Of a stretch of 39,596 bases of DNA, positions 751-25,969 are shown one piece after another. The translations under genes and the position numbers were made by a program. The notes beneath the pieces are model-generated. The model did not search any database. It was not told the origin of the DNA and saw only the letters and a program-made list of their open reading frames with translations. Position 1 is the stretch's first letter, and each line of letters opens with the position of its first letter. Origin of the DNA: an uncultured Mycoplasmatota bacterium (GTDB taxonomy: Bacteria > Bacillota_I > Bacilli_A > RF39 > UBA660); contig CAMMMG010000008.1 of NCBI GenBank assembly GCA_946497925.1, forward strand, positions 1 through 39,596, read 5' to 3'.

Positions 751-2535
751 ATGAAATATGGTGGTAAAGCTAATTCCTTATTATATTTAGCTAGTAATAA
801 TATTTTAGTACCTAAATTTTTTATTATAAGTAAAGATGACTATATTCAATTTTTAACTGATAATAATATTTACAAAAAAATTGAAGAGCTATTTACTAAA
901 AAGAAATACAAAAAAATAAAAGATATAATTATGAAACAAGACATAAATAGTGGACTAGCTAATAAACTAGCATTAGAACTACCTGAATTAAATTCTCATC
1001 TTTATGCTATTAGATCTTCTGCTAGTAATGAAGATGGAAAAGATAAATCATTCGCTGGACAGTACGATACTTTTTTAAATGTTAAAAAAGAAGATATCTT
1101 TTTAAATATAAAGAAGTGTTTCTGTTCTTTATACAATGATAATGTTATTAGTTATAGTGATGATTTTGATATTTATGGTATTAATGTTATTATACAGGTT
1201 ATGATTGATTCAGACTATTCCGGTGTTGCCTTTACAGTTGATCCATCAAGTGAATCTGATAACTATATTTTAATTGAAATGACTGAAGGACTAGGGGAAA
1301 AATTAGTATCTGGAAAAGTGATACCTAATAAGTTTTTTGTTAGAAAAGAAACAGGAATGATTGATTTGAAGATAGGAGAACTTTCTTTAGATGAAGTTAT
1401 TTTTAATCGCTTAATATTAGAAATAGAGAAGACAGAAAAAATATATAAATGTCCTATGGATATAGAATATGCAATTAAAGATAGAAAAATATACATTTTA
1501 CAAGCTAGGCCTATTACTGCTAGAACTATTTTACCTAAATCGTTTAGTTTAACTTTAACTAGACAAAAATCTCTTATAGATATAGAGTTATATTATAAAG
1601 GAGAATATTTTGGTATTAAAAATATTACTAAAAATTTATATTATTTTAAGCCTTTATTCGTTTATAATAATGTAGATAATAATGTTTCTATCTATTATAA
1701 TAATACAGACTTAGAAGAATTACCAAATCCTATGTATTATTTATTAGATATATATTTTGATAAGACATTAAAATATTATAGAAAAATAAAAAAAGATATA
1801 GAATATTTAAATAATACTATTAATAATAAGTTGGAAATAGATTATAGAACTTATATAGATAAAATAATAGAAATATATCCATTCACTAGTTTAGGACAAT
1901 TAGCAGGGCATTTTAATGACACTAGTAAAAGAGTAAAGGATTTATTAATAGAATTTAGAGAAAAGTATGATTATATTATTTATAAAGCTGTTGACTATTT
2001 AGTTTTTAAATTTAAAGCGATATTACCGGATAATTATAAAGAATATATAGACTTTTTACTTATAGATGAAATAATAAATAGTAAGTTACCTAGTATAGAA
2101 AGTTTAGAAAATAGAAAGCTTGGTTATATTTATTATAATAATAGTCTTTATGTTACTACTGACTATGATAAATTTTTTGGAGATAATAATATTAATATAG
2201 AAGAAGCTAGTAATAGCTTACTAAATGGAACATTTGCATATTCATCTAACACTAATATAACTGGTAGAGTATGTGTTATATTAAGTGATAAAGATTTTAA
2301 TAACTTTAAAAGAGGAGATATTATCGTTACACCTATGACTTCACCTAAATTTCTTAGTCTTATTAAGGAATCTAAAGCAATTATAACAGATGAAGGTGGA
2401 ACTTTGTCTCATGCTGCTATAATATCAAGGGAGTTAAAAATACCATGTTTGGTAGGGTGTACTAATGCTACAAAGAATTTATCTACAGGTAATATGATTG
2501 AAATAAATAAAAGAGGGGAAATAATTATTTTATAA
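751..2535 (+). CDS. PEP-synthase-like dikinase (ATP-grasp + C-terminal phosphohistidine domain), rifampin-phosphotransferase-like layout
   Basis: A 594-residue protein. Residues 1-260 form a PEP/pyruvate-dikinase ATP-binding domain: 'GGKANSL' near the start, 'RSSASNEDG...SFAGQYDT' near residue 87, 'SGVAFTVDP' near 160 and 'YILQARPIT' near 250. Residues about 500-594 are the swivelling phosphohistidine domain, with the 'TDEGGTLSHAAI' motif and its catalytic His at about residue 554. The C-terminal PEP/pyruvate-binding TIM barrel of true PEP synthase or PPDK is absent. The middle (about 270-490) is an unrecognised, mainly helical, Tyr/Asn/Ile-rich region. ATP-grasp, substrate domain, His domain is the order seen in rifampin phosphotransferases, which transfer the beta-phosphate of ATP to a small molecule. 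Here the substrate is unknown. The gene converges on pilB with a 6-nt tail overlap. It has only a weak AAAGTAGTGAT ribosome binding site. Confidence 0.75.
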   Translation: MKYGGKANSLLYLASNNILVPKFFIISKDDYIQFLTDNNIYKKIEELFTKKKYKKIKDIIMKQDINSGLANKLALELPELNSHLYAIRSSASNEDGKDKSFAGQYDTFLNVKKEDIFLNIKKCFCSLYNDNVISYSDDFDIYGINVIIQVMIDSDYSGVAFTVDPSSESDNYILIEMTEGLGEKLVSGKVIPNKFFVRKETGMIDLKIGELSLDEVIFNRLILEIEKTEKIYKCPMDIEYAIKDRKIYILQARPITARTILPKSFSLTLTRQKSLIDIELYYKGEYFGIKNITKNLYYFKPLFVYNNVDNNVSIYYNNTDLEELPNPMYYLLDIYFDKTLKYYRKIKKDIEYLNNTINNKLEIDYRTYIDKIIEIYPFTSLGQLAGHFNDTSKRVKDLLIEFREKYDYIIYKAVDYLVFKFKAILPDNYKEYIDFLLIDEIINSKLPSIESLENRKLGYIYYNNSLYVTTDYDKFFGDNNINIEEASNSLLNGTFAYSSNTNITGRVCVILSDKDFNNFKRGDIIVTPMTSPKFLSLIKESKAIITDEGGTLSHAAIISRELKIPCLVGCTNATKNLSTGNMIEINKRGEIIIL

Positions 2536-3846
2536 TATTTCATCCTCTTTTGTTTTATTTTCTACTTCAATAGTTTCAGATGATGCTTCCTCTTTTTTTT
2601 CTTCAACGTTATTTTCGTCATATTTTATACCTTTTATTTTACAATAAACATCTAAATCATCATCAACATCAATTATTTTGTATATTTCATCGAAAGTAGT
2701 AGAACCATCTAATACTTTTAAAAGTCCATCTTGAAGCATTGTAATAACATCTGATGTATAAACCATTTTATTTAAATCATCTTTTTCTAGATTTTCTTCA
2801 TTTAAAGCATTTCTAATTTCATCATTAATCATTAATACTTCTTGAATTGCAACTCGTCCATGGTAACCTTTATTACATTTATCACATCCTTTGGGATTAG
2901 CATTATATATTTCATCAACATCTTTATCTAAAGCTAGTTTAAATACTTTTTTCTGATATGGAGTAGTTTCTTCTTTAATACGACAATGTGGACATACCAT
3001 TTTGGCAAGTTTCTGAGAAATAATACCAGATAGGGCACTTGATAATAAATATCTTTCTACATTCATATCAAGGAGTCTTTCAATAGTACTTAAAGAGTTA
3101 TTAGTATGGATTGTAGAAAGTACTAAATGACCTGTAATAGAGGCTCTAACAGCAATTTTAGCAGTTTCACTATCACGAATTTCTCCAATAAGAATAACAT
3201 TGGGATCTTGTCTTAAAATAGATCTTAAAACAGTTGCAAAATCAAGGCCTATTTCACTATTTACTTGAACTTGATTTAGTCCTTCTAGATTCATTTCTAT
3301 TGGATCTTCGACAGTAATAATATTAGTTTCTTTTTTGTTTAATACTTGTAGAATAGAGTAAACAGTAGTACTTTTACCACTACCAGTCGCTCCAGTTATT
3401 AAAATAATACCATTTGGTTCTGAAATCATTTTCTTTAATTTTTTAAAGTTATCGTCATTGAAACCAAGAGCATCAATTCCTTGTAAACTTCTAGTATAAT
3501 CAAGAATACGAATAACACATTTTTCACCTTCATTAGTAGGTAGGGTAGATACACGGGTTTCTAAATTTATACCTTTAATAGTTCCTTTAATAGATCCATC
3601 TTGAGGTAATCTACTTTCAGTAATATTCATATTGGCGATAAGTTTAATTCTAGTTATTAAATTTCTTTCATATATTTTAGGAATTTGTGTATAATCTTGT
3701 AAATCTCCATCAACTCTAATTCTAACCATTAAACAGTCTTCTCTAGGATCGAAATGAATATCACTAGCCCCTTTTTTAGATGCATTAGCGATTATATCAT
3801 CAACAACATTAACGATTGGTGTTTTTGTCATATCATATGTTACCAA
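2530..3846 (-). CDS. pilB: type IV pilus / type II secretion assembly ATPase (PilB/GspE/ComGA family)
   Basis: A 438-residue secretion ATPase that would drive pilin assembly from the cytoplasmic face of the membrane. Residues about 15-110 form the N2-type domain ('GASDIHFDP', 'RVDG', 'SRLPQDG'). Then come Walker A 'GATGSGKST' near residue 152, the Asp box 'TVEDPIE', Walker B 'ILIGEIRD' and the His box 'STIHTNN'. A four-cysteine zinc site follows: CPHC near 285 and CDKC near 321. The PilB/GspE N1 domain is missing, so its size is closer to ComGA plus an acidic tail. A TTG at 3855 touches the GGGG ribosome binding site directly. TTG 3846 lies 9 nt from AAAGGGG and is the better start; ATG 3831 is the alternative. 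The gene is divergent from two prepilin genes, which it probably serves. Confidence 0.88.
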   Translation of the reverse strand: MVTYDMTKTPIVNVVDDIIANASKKGASDIHFDPREDCLMVRIRVDGDLQDYTQIPKIYERNLITRIKLIANMNITESRLPQDGSIKGTIKGINLETRVSTLPTNEGEKCVIRILDYTRSLQGIDALGFNDDNFKKLKKMISEPNGIILITGATGSGKSTTVYSILQVLNKKETNIITVEDPIEMNLEGLNQVQVNSEIGLDFATVLRSILRQDPNVILIGEIRDSETAKIAVRASITGHLVLSTIHTNNSLSTIERLLDMNVERYLLSSALSGIISQKLAKMVCPHCRIKEETTPYQKKVFKLALDKDVDEIYNANPKGCDKCNKGYHGRVAIQEVLMINDEIRNALNEENLEKDDLNKMVYTSDVITMLQDGLLKVLDGSTTFDEIYKIIDVDDDLDVYCKIKGIKYDENNVEEKKEEASSETIEVENKTKEDEIL

Positions 3847-3878
3847 AAGTATCAACCCCTTTACTTTATTTTAATCTT

Positions 3879-3931: not shown

Positions 3932-5821
3932 ATGAAAAAGACAAAAATAGTAAATAAAAGTGGATTTATTTTAGTAGAAACATTGATTGTTGGTGTTTTT
4001 ATTATGGGAATTTTCTCTTTACTTTATACTAATTTTTTTCCTCTTATTGGTGAGTATGAAAGATATAAAAACTATGATACAGTAGAATCTACTTACATTG
4101 CTCATTGGGGAAGAATGATAGCATTAAAAGGCTTACCAGAATCAGTTTATACAACTGCTAGTACTAGTGGTTATCTTGATATAACAGATTGTTCTTTGTA
4201 TACTGTTTCTGATGGTCAGAACTCTTGTGCAGCATTTAAGACTATGAATAATATATCTAAAATTTATTTAACCTCTTATGCAACTACTAATTTTAAAAAC
4301 TTTGTTAAAGACAATAACAGTTTTAGTAGAAGCTTTAGGGAATATATTTCTTATTTACCTACTTATAGTAAAAATACTAGTAAAACAGCCGATTCAGGTT
4401 ATTATAGAGTTATTGTTGAATATGTTTCAAATGATACATATAGATATGGGAATATTGAAGTATATATTGGTGGTTCAGAAGATAATAGTTCAAATGTAGG
4501 TGATGTAATAATTGATAATTTAATTTGCGATGCTACATATGATGATGGAGTAGATACTTTTATAACTTCTAGTTGTGGTGATCCTAATAACTATATCTGG
4601 TATAGTGGTAAACTATGGAGAGCGGTGTCTGTAAATAATGAAGCCAAGACAGTGAAATTAGTAACACAGTGGAATATAAGTACAATTACCTATAATCCTA
4701 GGAATAAAACTAGTTTTGAAGGAAGTTATATGGAAGATTGGTTAAATGATACGACAGTAGATGGCTTCTTAGGTAATTTAAGAGATCCAGAAAAGTTTAT
4801 AGTCACGGATGCAGTATGGGATGCGACAATGGATACTACAAATTTAGGAAGTATACAAAGACCAAATGGAATAATAACTGTAACAGCATCTATAGGTTTA
4901 CTAAATATGTATGAATATCAGACAAGTTATAGAGGAACAACCTATGATAATGGTTATTTAAATAATGGACTTGAGTGGTGGAACTTAACACCATATAGTT
5001 GGACAGAAGTTTGGTGGGTCAGCAGTAGTGGTTATGCGGGCAGCATTTCGCCTTCGAGGATTGGGAATGTGGGTGGCGTCCGTCCATCTATAAATCTAAA
5101 ATCTAGCGTCAAAATAGTAGATGGCGATGGGACAATAGATAATCCTTATCGCTTAAGCGGAGATAATGATGTTGACCTTTCTGGAACATTACTTTCAAGT
5201 AGATATAGTGGAGAGTATATAAGATTTGGAAGTGGCGAGAATAATCTATATAGAATAGTAAGTCACGAAAATGGTACAGGAACAAAGATAGTAAGTGCTG
5301 AACCGTTAAAAAGTACAGGAACATTTATAACAATGACCTTTGGAAGTAATCCAACATTTTCAAGTACAAATACAATAGGAACATTTTTGAATAATGATTA
5401 TTTAAATACAGGAAATGGATATTTAACAGATGAAGAACTAGACATGATAGAAGAAAGTACTGTATGGTATCTTGGAACTGTAGGAAGCGGTGATTCCTAC
5501 TTATATAAGAATGCCAAATATACAGATGCAAGCGGAACTACAACAACATCGAATGTAACAGAAGCTACAGTAGGTTTATTAAGATATGGAGAATTAATGG
5601 CAGGAGAATTCGATAGATCTGCTAATAATACAGCTTATTGGACTTTAACACCAGCTAGTACGTCAAACGTTTGGTGGGTCAGCAGTAGTGGTTATGTGTT
5701 CAGCTCTTGGTCTTCGATTAATTCGAAAGGCGTCCGGCCGTCAATAAATCTAAAATCTAATGTTGTAATAACTGGTGGAGATGGTACTATAAATAATCCA
5801 TTTACATTAGGACTTGAATAA
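3932..5821 (+). CDS. type IV prepilin-like protein with two tandem C-type-lectin-like domains carrying putative variable regions
   Basis: A 629-residue protein. It begins with a class III prepilin signal: basic leader, cleavage after G11, Glu at +5 (G^FILVE), then a hydrophobic helix to about residue 38. It would therefore be inserted in the membrane and assembled by the PilB-type ATPase next door. Residues about 40-185 are pilin-like. Two repeated modules follow, about 195-400 and 410-629. Each ends with W-x-L-T-P, then 'VWWVSSSGY', a variable patch, 'GVRPSINLKS', and a closing 'GDGTI.NP' strand. This is the layout of lectin-fold modules in large gut-Firmicutes surface proteins and DGR targets. 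The patches (residues about 360-387 and 580-607) are far richer in G+C than the rest. ATG 3932 follows AGAGGAG. My reading is a pilus-tip adhesin; the ligand is unknown. Confidence 0.75.
   Translation: MKKTKIVNKSGFILVETLIVGVFIMGIFSLLYTNFFPLIGEYERYKNYDTVESTYIAHWGRMIALKGLPESVYTTASTSGYLDITDCSLYTVSDGQNSCAAFKTMNNISKIYLTSYATTNFKNFVKDNNSFSRSFREYISYLPTYSKNTSKTADSGYYRVIVEYVSNDTYRYGNIEVYIGGSEDNSSNVGDVIIDNLICDATYDDGVDTFITSSCGDPNNYIWYSGKLWRAVSVNNEAKTVKLVTQWNISTITYNPRNKTSFEGSYMEDWLNDTTVDGFLGNLRDPEKFIVTDAVWDATMDTTNLGSIQRPNGIITVTASIGLLNMYEYQTSYRGTTYDNGYLNNGLEWWNLTPYSWTEVWWVSSSGYAGSISPSRIGNVGGVRPSINLKSSVKIVDGDGTIDNPYRLSGDNDVDLSGTLLSSRYSGEYIRFGSGENNLYRIVSHENGTGTKIVSAEPLKSTGTFITMTFGSNPTFSSTNTIGTFLNNDYLNTGNGYLTDEELDMIEESTVWYLGTVGSGDSYLYKNAKYTDASGTTTTSNVTEATVGLLRYGELMAGEFDRSANNTAYWTLTPASTSNVWWVSSSGYVFSSWSSINSKGVRPSINLKSNVVITGGDGTINNPFTLGLE
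5009..5105 (+). repeat. putative DGR variable region 1 (VR1) in the pilin-linked lectin module
   Basis: Residues about 360-391 of the prepilin-like protein. It opens with a 28-nt block identical to VR2 (5009-5036). The variable core 5037-5086 is about 60% G+C by hand count. A GGCGTCCG block (5075-5082) and an identical 16-nt tail (5090-5105) follow. Compared codon by codon with VR2, the first seven variable codons differ only at positions 1 and 2 while the third bases agree. That pattern is what adenine mutagenesis of AAY-type template codons would leave. No template repeat or reverse transcriptase lies in the window. Confidence 0.55.
5669..5759 (+). repeat. putative DGR variable region 2 (VR2) in the second lectin module
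   Basis: This is the second copy, starting exactly 660 nt after VR1. The same 28-nt block opens it (5669-5696). A shorter variable core follows, two codons less than VR1. GGCGTCCG is at 5729-5736 and the shared 16-nt tail at 5744-5759. The surrounding parts of the two lectin modules are much more diverged than these blocks, which suggests local sequence copying rather than simple descent from a duplication. Confidence 0.55.
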
Positions 5822-5836
5822 AAGGATGGTGGTAAG

Positions 5837-6343
5837 ATGAGATTAAATAATAAGGGGATTACATCAGTTGAGTTATTAGTATGTTTTATTATTGTTTCTA
5901 CTATTGTAGTTAGTATGTTTAATTTAATTATGAACTATCGAAATAAAGAACAGATAGAAGAGATTAATAATGAAGTTATAGCATATAGTAATAATCTCCA
6001 AAAAGTTATTCAAGATGATTTAATTAAGGGACATTTAACTAGTGTTAGCAATGTGACAAGTGATGGATATAGTGCCACTTTTACTTTTGATAATCCTAGT
6101 AGTTATACAACGACTCTTGTAATTAATCCAGATGATTTTGTAATTAGTTATGGTAGGGAAGGTAATGTTATAGATTATGAAATACCTAACATTCCTGATT
6201 TGAAATTAAGTCCTTCATCTAGTATTACGTATATCCCTGCTAATAATGGATATTTACAAATAAATATTGTTTTAACTCATCCTAACTTTACAGATGAAAC
6301 TTATTCTTTTATGATAAATTGTCCTGTTAATTATGCTTATTAA
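5837..6343 (+). CDS. second type IV prepilin-like protein (minor pseudopilin)
   Basis: A 168-residue protein with a short leader MRLNNKG and a class III signal: cleavage after G7, Glu at +5 (G^ITSVE). A hydrophobic helix of about 22 residues follows, then about 135 extracytoplasmic residues rich in Asn, Ser, Thr and Tyr. Size and layout fit a minor pseudopilin such as those of the GspH/I/J or ComGD/E/F/G classes; the rest is too divergent to assign. ATG 5837 lies 15 nt after the lectin-prepilin stop, behind GGATGGTGG, so the two genes form an operon. The product would be assembled with the larger prepilin by the divergent PilB-type ATPase. The 3' end overlaps the convergent ylbJ gene by 4 nt. 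Confidence 0.75.
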   Translation: MRLNNKGITSVELLVCFIIVSTIVVSMFNLIMNYRNKEQIEEINNEVIAYSNNLQKVIQDDLIKGHLTSVSNVTSDGYSATFTFDNPSSYTTTLVINPDDFVISYGREGNVIDYEIPNIPDLKLSPSSSITYIPANNGYLQINIVLTHPNFTDETYSFMINCPVNYAY

Positions 6344-17590: not shown

Positions 17591-17638
17591 AGTTGATAAT
17601 GTTTTAAACTTTGTATATAATAATGTTAGGTGATGATA

Positions 17639-18943
17639 ATGTATAATGAAGATCAAAAAACAGAATTAAAAGTTGAGCTTACAAAAGATATAAAGAAAGA
17701 AATTGTTGCCTTTGCCAATACAAATGATGGTACTATTTATATTGGTATTGATGATGATGGAAGGATTGTAGGGTTAACAGATGCTGAAAAAGATTTAGAG
17801 GCTTTAAGCGGTATGATAAGAGAAGGAATCAAATCTGATTTAACGCTTTATACTAAAATTTATATTGAAAAAATTAATAATAAAGATATAATTGTAGTTA
17901 AAGTTAGTGAGGCACCTAATAAACCTTATTATTTATCTGATAAAGGATTAAAATCTTCAGGTGTTTATTTAAGACATGGAAATGTATCTGTACAAGCAAG
18001 TGAGGAAGTTATTAAAAAAATGCTAGTAGAAAGCAATAGTAATTCTTTTGAAAGCAATATTTCAAAAGAACAAAATCTTCATTTTGATTATTTAAAAGGC
18101 CTTTTTAAACAACATAATTTAGAAATTAATGATAATAAATTTAAAGCATTAAATATTATTGATTTAAATAATAGATATACTAATTTAGGATTGCTTTTAT
18201 CAGATGAATGTCCATATTCAATAAAATGTGCAATTTTTAATGGTAAAAATAAGCTTGAATTTAAAGATAGAAAAGAATTTACTGGCTCAGTTTTAAAGCA
18301 AGCCAATGAAGCTTTTGAATATTTAAATCTATTTAATAGAATTAAAGGAAAAATTGTAGGACTTGAGAGGGTTGATACAAGAGACTATCCAGAATATGCA
18401 CTTAGAGAAGCATTATTGAATGCTATTATACATAGAGATTATAATTTTACAGGCAGTATATTAATATCATTATTTGATGACCGCTTTGAAATTACTTCTT
18501 TAGGTGGATTAGTTAAGGGGTTAAATATGGCGGACTTATATTGCGGTGTATCTGAGTCTCGTAATCCAAATTTAGCTAATGTTTTTTATAGATTAAAATA
18601 TGTTGAAAGCTTTGGTACAGGAATAGAAAGGATATTTGAATCGTATGAAAATTATGATAAGAAACCATTATTATTAAATACTGAAAATACATTTAAGGTA
18701 GTTTTATATAATGTTAATTATATAGATGATAATAGTGAAAAAAAGTTACCTTCAAATTTAACACAAGAAGAACAAATTATTGAATATTTAAAGAAAAATG
18801 AAAAAGTTAATCGTAAAATTGTGGAAGCTTTACTAAATATATCTAAAACGAGAGCTAATAATATTTTGAATAAGATGGTGGATGACGAAATTTTGGTTAG
18901 AATTAATAGTGGTAGAAATGTATCATATATATTAAAGAAATAA
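17639..18943 (+). CDS. AlbA_2/Schlafen-type ATP-binding protein with GHKL-like region and winged helix
   Basis: A 434-residue protein. The N-terminal AlbA_2 (divergent AAA_4) domain at about 1-125 has 'TELKVELTKDIKKEIVAFANT', 'GTIYIGIDDDGRIVG' and 'GVYLRHGNVSVQAS'. The central ATP-binding-like region has 'YPEYALREALLNAIIHRDY', 'ILISLFDDRFEITSLGGL' and 'ESRNPNLANVFYRL'. The C-terminal 60 residues look like a winged helix ('QIIEYLKKNEKVNRKIVEALL'). Members are common accessory, phage- or island-linked proteins; some act as transcription regulators or defence components. GTG 17630 and ATG 17633 are alternative starts; ATG 17639 has the best spacing to AGG. A terminator follows at 19000. A second, longer relative lies at 24353-25969. 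Confidence 0.8.
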   Translation: MYNEDQKTELKVELTKDIKKEIVAFANTNDGTIYIGIDDDGRIVGLTDAEKDLEALSGMIREGIKSDLTLYTKIYIEKINNKDIIVVKVSEAPNKPYYLSDKGLKSSGVYLRHGNVSVQASEEVIKKMLVESNSNSFESNISKEQNLHFDYLKGLFKQHNLEINDNKFKALNIIDLNNRYTNLGLLLSDECPYSIKCAIFNGKNKLEFKDRKEFTGSVLKQANEAFEYLNLFNRIKGKIVGLERVDTRDYPEYALREALLNAIIHRDYNFTGSILISLFDDRFEITSLGGLVKGLNMADLYCGVSESRNPNLANVFYRLKYVESFGTGIERIFESYENYDKKPLLLNTENTFKVVLYNVNYIDDNSEKKLPSNLTQEEQIIEYLKKNEKVNRKIVEALLNISKTRANNILNKMVDDEILVRINSGRNVSYILKK

Positions 18944-24352: not shown

Positions 24353-25969
24353 ATGGAAAAAAATGAAGTAATAGATGCAATAAAAATTTTAAGAAAATAT
24401 AATACAGAGACTAATAGAATAGAAGCTAAGAGTGCTTTATTAGGTTTTCCTAAAAAGTGTTATGATACAATATCTAGTTTTTCTAATAAATATGGTGGCA
24501 TTATTATTTTTGGCTTAAATGAAGATGATAATTTTAAAACAGAAGGTGTTTATGATATTAATGATTTACAGAAACAAATAACTTCTTTATGTAGTGATGC
24601 TATGGTTCCTAGAGTTAGAACGGATATACTACCACTTGAGTTTGAAGGTAAGAATATTCTTGCAGTAAAAATTGAAGAATTAAGACAAAATAAAAAGCCT
24701 TGTTATTATAAACCTAAAGGATTAAAAGCAGGTTCTTATACAAGAGAAGGTGATAGAGATGAGTTATTGACTGATTATGAGATTTATGCTTTTGAAAGTT
24801 ATAATGATCATATTTTTGAAGATACAAGACCAACTAAAAAATCTAGTATTGAAGATTTAAATAAAGAAAGTTTAAAAGAATATCTTAATAAAATAAAAGA
24901 GTTAAAACCAAACTTTTCTAAAAACAGTTATGAAAAAAATTTAAAACTATGTGGTATAGTTGATAGCGATAACAATAAAATATATCCAACACTTGCAGGA
25001 ACACTTATTTTTGGTGATTATCCTCAAAGTTTTTATCCACAATTATTTGTCGCTTGTTCTGTCATACCAGGAACAAAATTAGGTGATGTTGGCTCTTTAG
25101 GAGAAAGATTTATTGATAATCAAAGAGTAGAGGGAACTATAGAAGAGATGCTTGATGGTACTATGAGATTTTTAAGAAGAAATATGAAGACTAGAGTAAT
25201 AATAGATTCTAATGGTAAAAGAGAAAATAGAACTGAATATCCTTTAGAAGCATTAAGAGAGGCTGTTGCCAACGCTTTAATCCACAGGGATTATAGTAAA
25301 GAAACAGAAAGCGCCTTTATTTCTGTTTATATGTATGATGATAGAGTAGAGATTTTAAATCCTGGAGCATTATATGGTACTAATAAAATAGAAAAACTTG
25401 GAACTGATACTATAATGGAGTCAAGGAATCCTACAATAGTTAGAATATTAGAAGAAAAAGGTTCTGTTATAGAAAATAGGCATACAGGTATTCCTACTAT
25501 GAAAAGAGAAATGGAAAAGTATGAATTACCTGAACCAGAATTTTATGAAGAAAGAGGAAGTTTTAAAGTTATATTTAGGAATAGTATGAATTTTGAACTT
25601 GATAGTATTAGTGAACAAGTTGGTGGACAACAAAATATAATAAATACTATATATAATATGGAAAGTGATACAGAAAGTGATACACAAAGTGATACAGAAA
25701 GTGATACACAAAGTGATACAGAAAGTGATACACAAAGTGATACAGAAAGTGATACAGAAAGTGAAGTATTTAATAATGTATTAGCATTTTGTAAAGAACC
25801 AAAAACTGCTAAAGAAATTAGAAATTATTTAGGTATTTCTTCAAAAAGATATGTTGCTTACAAAATATTAAAGCCGCTTATCGATTTAAATAAATTAGAG
25901 TATACTAATAAGAAAATTACTAATGCTAGAAATCAAAGATATGTAACTGTTAGAGATAATAAAAAGTAG
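24353..25969 (+). CDS. AlbA_2/Schlafen-type ATP-binding protein with acidic repeat linker
   Basis: A 538-residue protein. The N-terminal AlbA_2 domain (about 15-145) has 'NRIEAKSALLGFPKKCYDTI', 'NKYGGIIIFGLNED' and 'GSYTREGDRDELLTDYEI'. A middle region follows, then the ATP-binding-like part 'EYPLEALREAVANALIHRDY' with 'RVEILNPGALYG' and 'MESRNPTIVRILEE'. At about 437-472 a run of nine ESDT/QSDT units links to a C-terminal winged helix ('AKEIRNYLGISSKRY'). The linker is encoded by a 12-nt tandem repeat, so copy number can change without a frameshift. AT-rich codon use matches its surroundings. It is longer than its relative at 17639-18943. The role is unproven; regulator or stress/defence effector are the usual suggestions. 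GGAGGTG precedes ATG 24353. Confidence 0.82.
   Translation: MEKNEVIDAIKILRKYNTETNRIEAKSALLGFPKKCYDTISSFSNKYGGIIIFGLNEDDNFKTEGVYDINDLQKQITSLCSDAMVPRVRTDILPLEFEGKNILAVKIEELRQNKKPCYYKPKGLKAGSYTREGDRDELLTDYEIYAFESYNDHIFEDTRPTKKSSIEDLNKESLKEYLNKIKELKPNFSKNSYEKNLKLCGIVDSDNNKIYPTLAGTLIFGDYPQSFYPQLFVACSVIPGTKLGDVGSLGERFIDNQRVEGTIEEMLDGTMRFLRRNMKTRVIIDSNGKRENRTEYPLEALREAVANALIHRDYSKETESAFISVYMYDDRVEILNPGALYGTNKIEKLGTDTIMESRNPTIVRILEEKGSVIENRHTGIPTMKREMEKYELPEPEFYEERGSFKVIFRNSMNFELDSISEQVGGQQNIINTIYNMESDTESDTQSDTESDTQSDTESDTQSDTESDTESEVFNNVLAFCKEPKTAKEIRNYLGISSKRYVAYKILKPLIDLNKLEYTNKKITNARNQRYVTVRDNKK
25661..25768 (+). repeat. 12-nt tandem repeat (nine units) inside the AlbA_2 gene
   Basis: The units are GAAAGTGATACA or CAAAGTGATACA, encoding ESDT or QSDT. 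Eight are intact and the ninth is degenerate (ESEV). Units are nearly identical at the nucleotide level, implying recent slippage. Length changes keep the frame and would only alter the linker between the ATP-binding part and the winged helix. Confidence 0.9.

Follow-up and report, generated by a model that had tools for sequence, protein, structure and literature searches.

Background

The closest described systems each resemble one side of the locus reported here. In Bacteroides, a DGR diversifies the tip pilin of type V pili (Macadangdang et al., as cited in PMC12632263). DUF6273 proteins are known DGR targets in Faecalibacterium prophages (PMC11792537) and in the nd4/nd12 phages (PMC10743442). 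Multi-target DGRs with remote targets are reported from cyanobacteria (PMC7517822), and several variable regions within one ORF have been reported for 31 DGRs (PMC6642488).

The window, the 39,596-nt stretch of DNA analysed in this study, contains a gene with two patches that are very probably DGR variable regions, carried by a minor pilin of type IV, probably of the competence type, that has two DUF6273 repeats. The likeness to the Bacteroides type V tip pilins is that, again in a gut bacterium, a DGR would rewrite a pilin and probably the domain with which it binds; unlike the type V lipoprotein pilins of Bacteroidota, the protein is a competence-like type IV prepilin of Bacilli with two DUF6273 patches. 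With the phage targets it shares a DUF6273-like domain, the C-type lectin fold in the model and the placement of the variable region on a predicted beta-hairpin (PMC11792537, PMC10743442), and in the Faecalibacterium phages, as here, the variable region lies in the C-terminal part of the DUF6273 domain (PMC11792537). Unlike the phage proteins, the repeats described here are chromosomal, tandem-duplicated and joined to a pilin or signal-anchor. One cassette would serve several dispersed genes, similar to the cyanobacterial multi-target DGRs; targets and taxon nevertheless differ from those of the cyanobacterial and multi-VR systems, and the modules here have two variable regions each and occur several per genome (PMC7517822, PMC6642488). 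Pilins diversified by DGRs and DUF6273 targets have each been described before, and what is new is their combination, the two patches per module and the repeated grafting of the module onto a type IV minor pilin.

The proposed target gene and its pilus neighbourhood

The features of the window that are discussed below are as follows.

2530..3855, minus strand: PilB/GspE-type ATPase, divergent from and adjoining the target gene (Pfam T2SSE, E=7.7e-121)
3932..5821, plus strand: target gene, 629 aa, prepilin N-terminus followed by two DUF6273 (C-type-lectin-like) repeats with one variable region each (ORF; genus orthologues)
3932..4471, plus strand: minor-pilin part, about aa 1-180, with an SG/FILVE prepilin cleavage motif, weakly ComGD-like
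4535..5158, plus strand: DUF6273-like repeat 1, modelled as a C-type lectin fold (Pfam, AlphaFold2, structural matches)
5009..5105, plus strand: variable region 1 (VR1), module residues 159 to about 189
5159..5818, plus strand: DUF6273-like repeat 2, aligning to repeat 1 across paralogues
5669..5760, plus strand: variable region 2 (VR2)
5837..6343, plus strand: second prepilin, downstream of the target gene, weakly ComGE-like (NCBIfam ComGE, E=2.3e-4, below cut-off)

The target protein opens with the prepilin motif MKKTKIVNKSGFILVETL, and its GFILVE motif and cleavage site confirm the prepilin signal noted in an earlier, sequence-only reading of this DNA; the PilB ATPase that the same reading had placed beside the gene is likewise there. 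Genes for a platform protein (T2SSF) and a prepilin peptidase (Peptidase_A24) are adjacent on contig C19. The minor-pilin part matched ComGD with E=0.037, below the cut-off, and the weak sub-threshold matches, to ComGD for one prepilin and ComGE for the other, hint that the pilus is of the competence type; the pilin may sit at its tip. Elsewhere in the window, two ORFs (17630-18943 and 24353-25969) resemble, judged by eye from the ORF list, putative DNA-binding ATPase-like proteins of the AlbA/Schlafen type.

A lectin-like module with a predicted variable hairpin

Repeat 1 of the window protein scored E=0.001 and 19.4 bits against Pfam DUF6273 (cut-off 23.5), and four of five paralogues from the same genome were above the cut-off with 35-47 bits. 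Elsewhere in this genome, copies on C15, C24, C11, C4 and C31 follow other N-termini. No sequence match to the module was found in the PDB, nor any phage relative in IMG/VR when two peptide patterns were scanned. An AlphaFold2 model of repeat 1 by itself, for which the input alignment comprised the two repeats, had a mean pLDDT of 87.6 (39 for a model of the whole module). Its top structural match was the N-terminal part of the Thomasclavelia ramosa IgA peptidase (9qa6, Z 18.4), and its C-type-lectin matches included the DGR protein TvpA (Z 7.0), Legionella Lcl (Z 6.7) and Bdellovibrio Bd2740 (Z 6.2), followed by NK receptors at Z 4-4.6 (CD94/NKG2A, Z 4.6). Scores at the TvpA and Lcl level (Z 6-7) are modest taken alone; with the confidence of the model, these matches bear out the fold of the proposed lectin domains. 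VR1 starts at model residue 159 and takes in the two predicted strands of the hairpin, 159-162 and 168-171.

The position of the variable codons, on a hairpin like the proposed receptor-binding region of the phage DUF6273 proteins (PMC10743442), suggests that the repeat may bind ligands, and it speaks against the idea that the repeats form a structural cap whose diversification serves immune or phage escape rather than adhesion. A C-type lectin fold is in itself no proof of binding, and it counts for the cap that the closest solved relative is the N-terminal part of an IgA peptidase; on balance, we regard the cap as the less likely reading.

Two patches of the same gene

Both patches have the same layout, with 28 nt that are identical between 5009-5036 and 5669-5696 (GTTTGGTGGGTCAGCAGTAGTGGTTATG), a differing core, GGCGTCCG and then a 16-nt tail, ATAAATCTAAAATCTA, at 5090 and 5744. 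The identical edges first reported from the sequence thus match exactly, and the cores are GC-rich as claimed: the VR1 patch has 49% GC and the VR2 patch 43%, compared with 27% for the window, in which 0.08 and 0.6% of all 92-mers, respectively, are at or above the GC content of the patch. The seven variable codon pairs quoted earlier read as given, with 0/7 differences at the third position (P ~1e-3). Over 20 aligned codons, VR1 and VR2 differ 6, 5 and 1 times at codon positions 1, 2 and 3, whereas the pilin part and its closest orthologue differ 17, 15 and 54 times, mostly at the third position. With the neutral third-position share taken from this pilin comparison, as for both P values, at most 1 third-position difference in 12 has P ~1.5e-4. 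The further proposal that the variable codons derive from AAY template codons stood in part: some of the seven are AAY in known templates, but the codons of the pairs GCG/GTG, TCG/TGG and CCT/TCT usually are not.

Compared with the closest orthologue (genome G007), VR1 is 59% and VR2 63% identical, as opposed to 85% for the pilin part, 87% for the stretch before VR1, 75% between the patches and 91% after VR2. At the sequence level, the patches have diverged in excess of the other parts of the gene. The 28 nt common to VR1 and VR2 include codons that are AAC or AAT in known templates. This sharing is greater than expected after two independent rounds of mutagenesis and may reflect gene conversion or an unseen template.

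Changes specific to template adenines across the genus

The genus sample (Candidatus Onthousia) consisted of 35 genomes, namely our own and 34 congeners. Reverse transcriptases (E<=1e-30) were present in 30/35 genomes and patches in 30/35, and 99 distinct patches and 16 uninterrupted templates were recovered. For 68 patches there was a template from which they departed at no more than 6 non-A positions; in these, 48% of the template A sites differ, compared with 8.6% of the other bases; when the same procedure was applied to C, G or T, just 9-10 patches qualified and there was no excess. The two window patches behave alike. Against its closest template, VR1 differs at 9/15 A sites and 4/33 others (p=0.0012), and VR2 at 12/17 A sites and 6/31 others (p=0.0007), with flat C, G and T controls. 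Because the control undergoes the identical choice of the best template, this test is the strongest single piece of evidence in the study, and by this comparison of sequences the patch changes are specific to template A, both genus-wide and in the two patches of the window.

A rival account without any retroelement, namely ordinary diversifying selection or recombination between lectin paralogues, might be considered in view of the many paralogous copies of the module and the scattering of pilin-borne modules in the module tree. Neither would make changes specific to template A while C, G and T have no effect, and the templates lie outside genes, adjoining RT and Avd genes, and the third codon bases are kept between the patches; we consider such an origin very improbable. 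Diversification of the pilin-linked lectin-fold module by a DGR in trans is well supported. In the mechanism we propose, a cassette elsewhere on the chromosome, comprising a template repeat, a small ORF, an Avd-like protein and a reverse transcriptase, would make A-mutagenised cDNA from its template. The cDNA would take the place of the codons for the hairpin, towards the end of each DUF6273 repeat of the pilin, and the same cDNA would also rewrite several dispersed paralogues in the genome. The process may continue today, in which case the targets that the pilus is able to hold on to might go on changing.

The retroelement in the host genome

The draft genome to which the window belongs (1.21 Mb, 102 contigs, 93% complete) encodes three reverse transcriptases, on contigs C23, C7 and C26. 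In DGR reverse transcriptases the motif [IVL]GNxxSQ replaces the QGxxxSP of group II enzymes. The C23 and C7 enzymes carry IGNYTSQ, which is DGR-type, and each adjoins an Avd-like gene, while the C26 enzyme carries QGSILSP and is of the group II type. The reverse transcriptase on which the initial hypothesis depended was accordingly located on C23, DGR-type, with an open reading frame and an Avd-like partner (PHROG Avd, E=4e-6; Pfam bAvd, E=0.011, below the cut-off). The second DGR-type enzyme, in the region L015 7756-13726 of C7, was set aside as driver of the window patches because it has its own Avd, with a good match to bAvd (E=3e-23), and an FGE-sulfatase-like protein nearby, and because its neighbourhood yielded no template that matches the window. 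The FGE-sulfatase-like gene lies 3 kb upstream, and its last 36 coding nucleotides, with the 30 nt that follow the stop, are repeated exactly at L015:10760-10825.

An AAC-rich template (GTTCGGTATGTCAACAACAACGGTAACGCGAACAACAATTTGCC...) occupies C15:23466-23539, immediately after a gene that itself has two such patches, and over 72 nt it differs from the first of these patches at 10 A positions and at 1 other. In relatives, the order is contiguous: template, a conserved spacer of about 210 nt, a 112-aa ORF, Avd and reverse transcriptase. In our draft, the C15 template and the C23 reverse transcriptase are on separate contigs. The tail of C15 and the head of C23 match the two parts of the relatives' template-to-RT arrangement, but C15 continues for about 125 nt with other sequence past the matching tail, and for these reasons the adjacency of the two in this genome is plausible, though not proven. 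The ORF ahead of Avd, 112-115 aa long, is found on the C23 contig as well (L016:98-436) and in relatives lies between template and Avd; it had no Pfam or PHROG match and is possibly an extra DGR component.

The template of the window patches

The A-rich template that the earlier reading called for was thus found, on C15, and it is homologous to the window patches; non-A differences speak against it as their direct donor. The reading as a whole, a pilus-tip adhesin diversified by a DGR, is supported in part: the reverse transcriptase, Avd-like gene, template, prepilin, pilus genes and lectin fold are all present, and a place at the pilus tip, binding and present activity of the DGR are possible. 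Over 48 nt, the best templates leave 4 (VR1) and 6 (VR2) non-A mismatches. No template fitting either patch with differences at A only was found in our draft (which is broken at the cassette) or in the 34 congeners, and no direct template was found in the window or in the scanned stretches of C7, C23, C15, C24, C11, C4, C31, C44 and C26. A pattern search of the genus with the 5' part of the template detected a single template of the C15 type in our genome, and the pattern of the 3' end, searched in 193 family genomes, was not found outside the genus in that sample. Because of the 4-6 non-A mismatches and the 28 nt common to VR1 and VR2, the sequences suggest a slightly different template absent from the draft, some drift, or copying between the patches. 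We infer that the donor resembled, but was slightly unlike, the C15 template, and a cognate template would be expected to read close to GTTTGGTNNGTCAACAAYAAYGGTAAYG...GGCGTCCGG. The C24 patches of the same genome fit another species' template (best that of G004) better than the C15 template, for which reason template turnover appears normal in the genus.

Several patches of our genome, on C11b, C4 and C31 (L019, L020, L021), are AT-rich, have 16-19 non-A mismatches and no fitting template, and are apparently retired variable regions. The window patches might likewise be fossil variable regions, made by an ancestral DGR whose template was lost or changed and altered since by drift, gene conversion or recombination among paralogues. 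This is a sub-case of our preferred explanation as far as the origin of the patches is concerned and differs in that the process would have stopped here. The 4-6 non-A mismatches left by every known template are in keeping with a fossil state, as are the 28 shared nucleotides, the degenerate look of the patches just named and the stretch between the patches, which at 75% identity to the orthologue is more diverged than its flanks. Unlike the degenerate patches, however, those of the window still have third bases that are GC-rich and template-like, their 3' GGCGTCCG end is intact, the A bias is still significant in both, and the frame of the reverse transcriptase is open. A fossil state is a possibility that deserves some weight, although we do not favour it.

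Probable grafting of the module onto a core pilin

The pilin part is a core gene, present in 34/35 genomes of the genus. The module was found on the pilin in six of the genomes read (the window genome, G007, G001, G013, G028 and G008), and in the other genomes examined the pilin ends near residue 175-190 without it. Because the pilin is core and the module was seen in just six species, the module is read as having been gained or lost repeatedly. The pilin tree requires five gains or losses, at least three of them forced by well-supported branches, and in the module tree, which includes five modules labelled as pilin-borne and the window module as L004_oth without that label, the modules borne by pilins fail to group together. 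The window and G007 modules probably derive from one graft, since their pilins have a common linker and SSC insertion.

We lean, by a small measure, towards the broader view that a portable two-patch DGR module has repeatedly been attached to a conserved competence-type minor pilin. A retractable pilus, which may serve DNA uptake, would thereby carry a lectin that diversifies itself, and this would be one outlet of a repertoire of such modules that is spread over the chromosome and rewritten in trans from templates they share. DGR-driven diversification of pili, known from the type V pili of Bacteroidota, would then also occur in a competence-like type IV pilus of uncultured gut Bacilli, whose genomes measure roughly 1-1.7 Mb. 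The variable module is a part gained or lost on a core pilin, which permits asking whether programmed mutation alters the ligand of a type IV pilus. Having many targets in each genome, along with 16 uninterrupted templates and others naturally interrupted by a recombinase-trio element, the genus is a good comparative system for the study of one DGR serving many genes.

A recombinase element in interrupted templates

The templates of seven Onthousia species are broken at one fixed point, near GGCAAYGCGAA, by an element with the palindrome TTATAAGACATGTCTTATAA at one end. The cases are listed below.

L112:7460-10930 (G016:C8): interrupting element, both junctions resolved
L265:4470-7960 (G009:C20): interrupting element, both junctions resolved
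G002:C6, G010:C4, G012:C48, G021:C36 and G032:C106: further cases of the interrupting element

In G016 and G009, the element contains three adjacent tyrosine recombinases (Recombinase-in-trio type) between the inverted ends TATAGGACAAAAT.../...ATTTTGTCCTATA. Insertion of the element should switch the template off. All 7 occurrences of the palindrome in the 35 genomes are at the template break point, beside a template-like 5' half, and the DGR template appears to be the preferred site of the recombinase-trio element.
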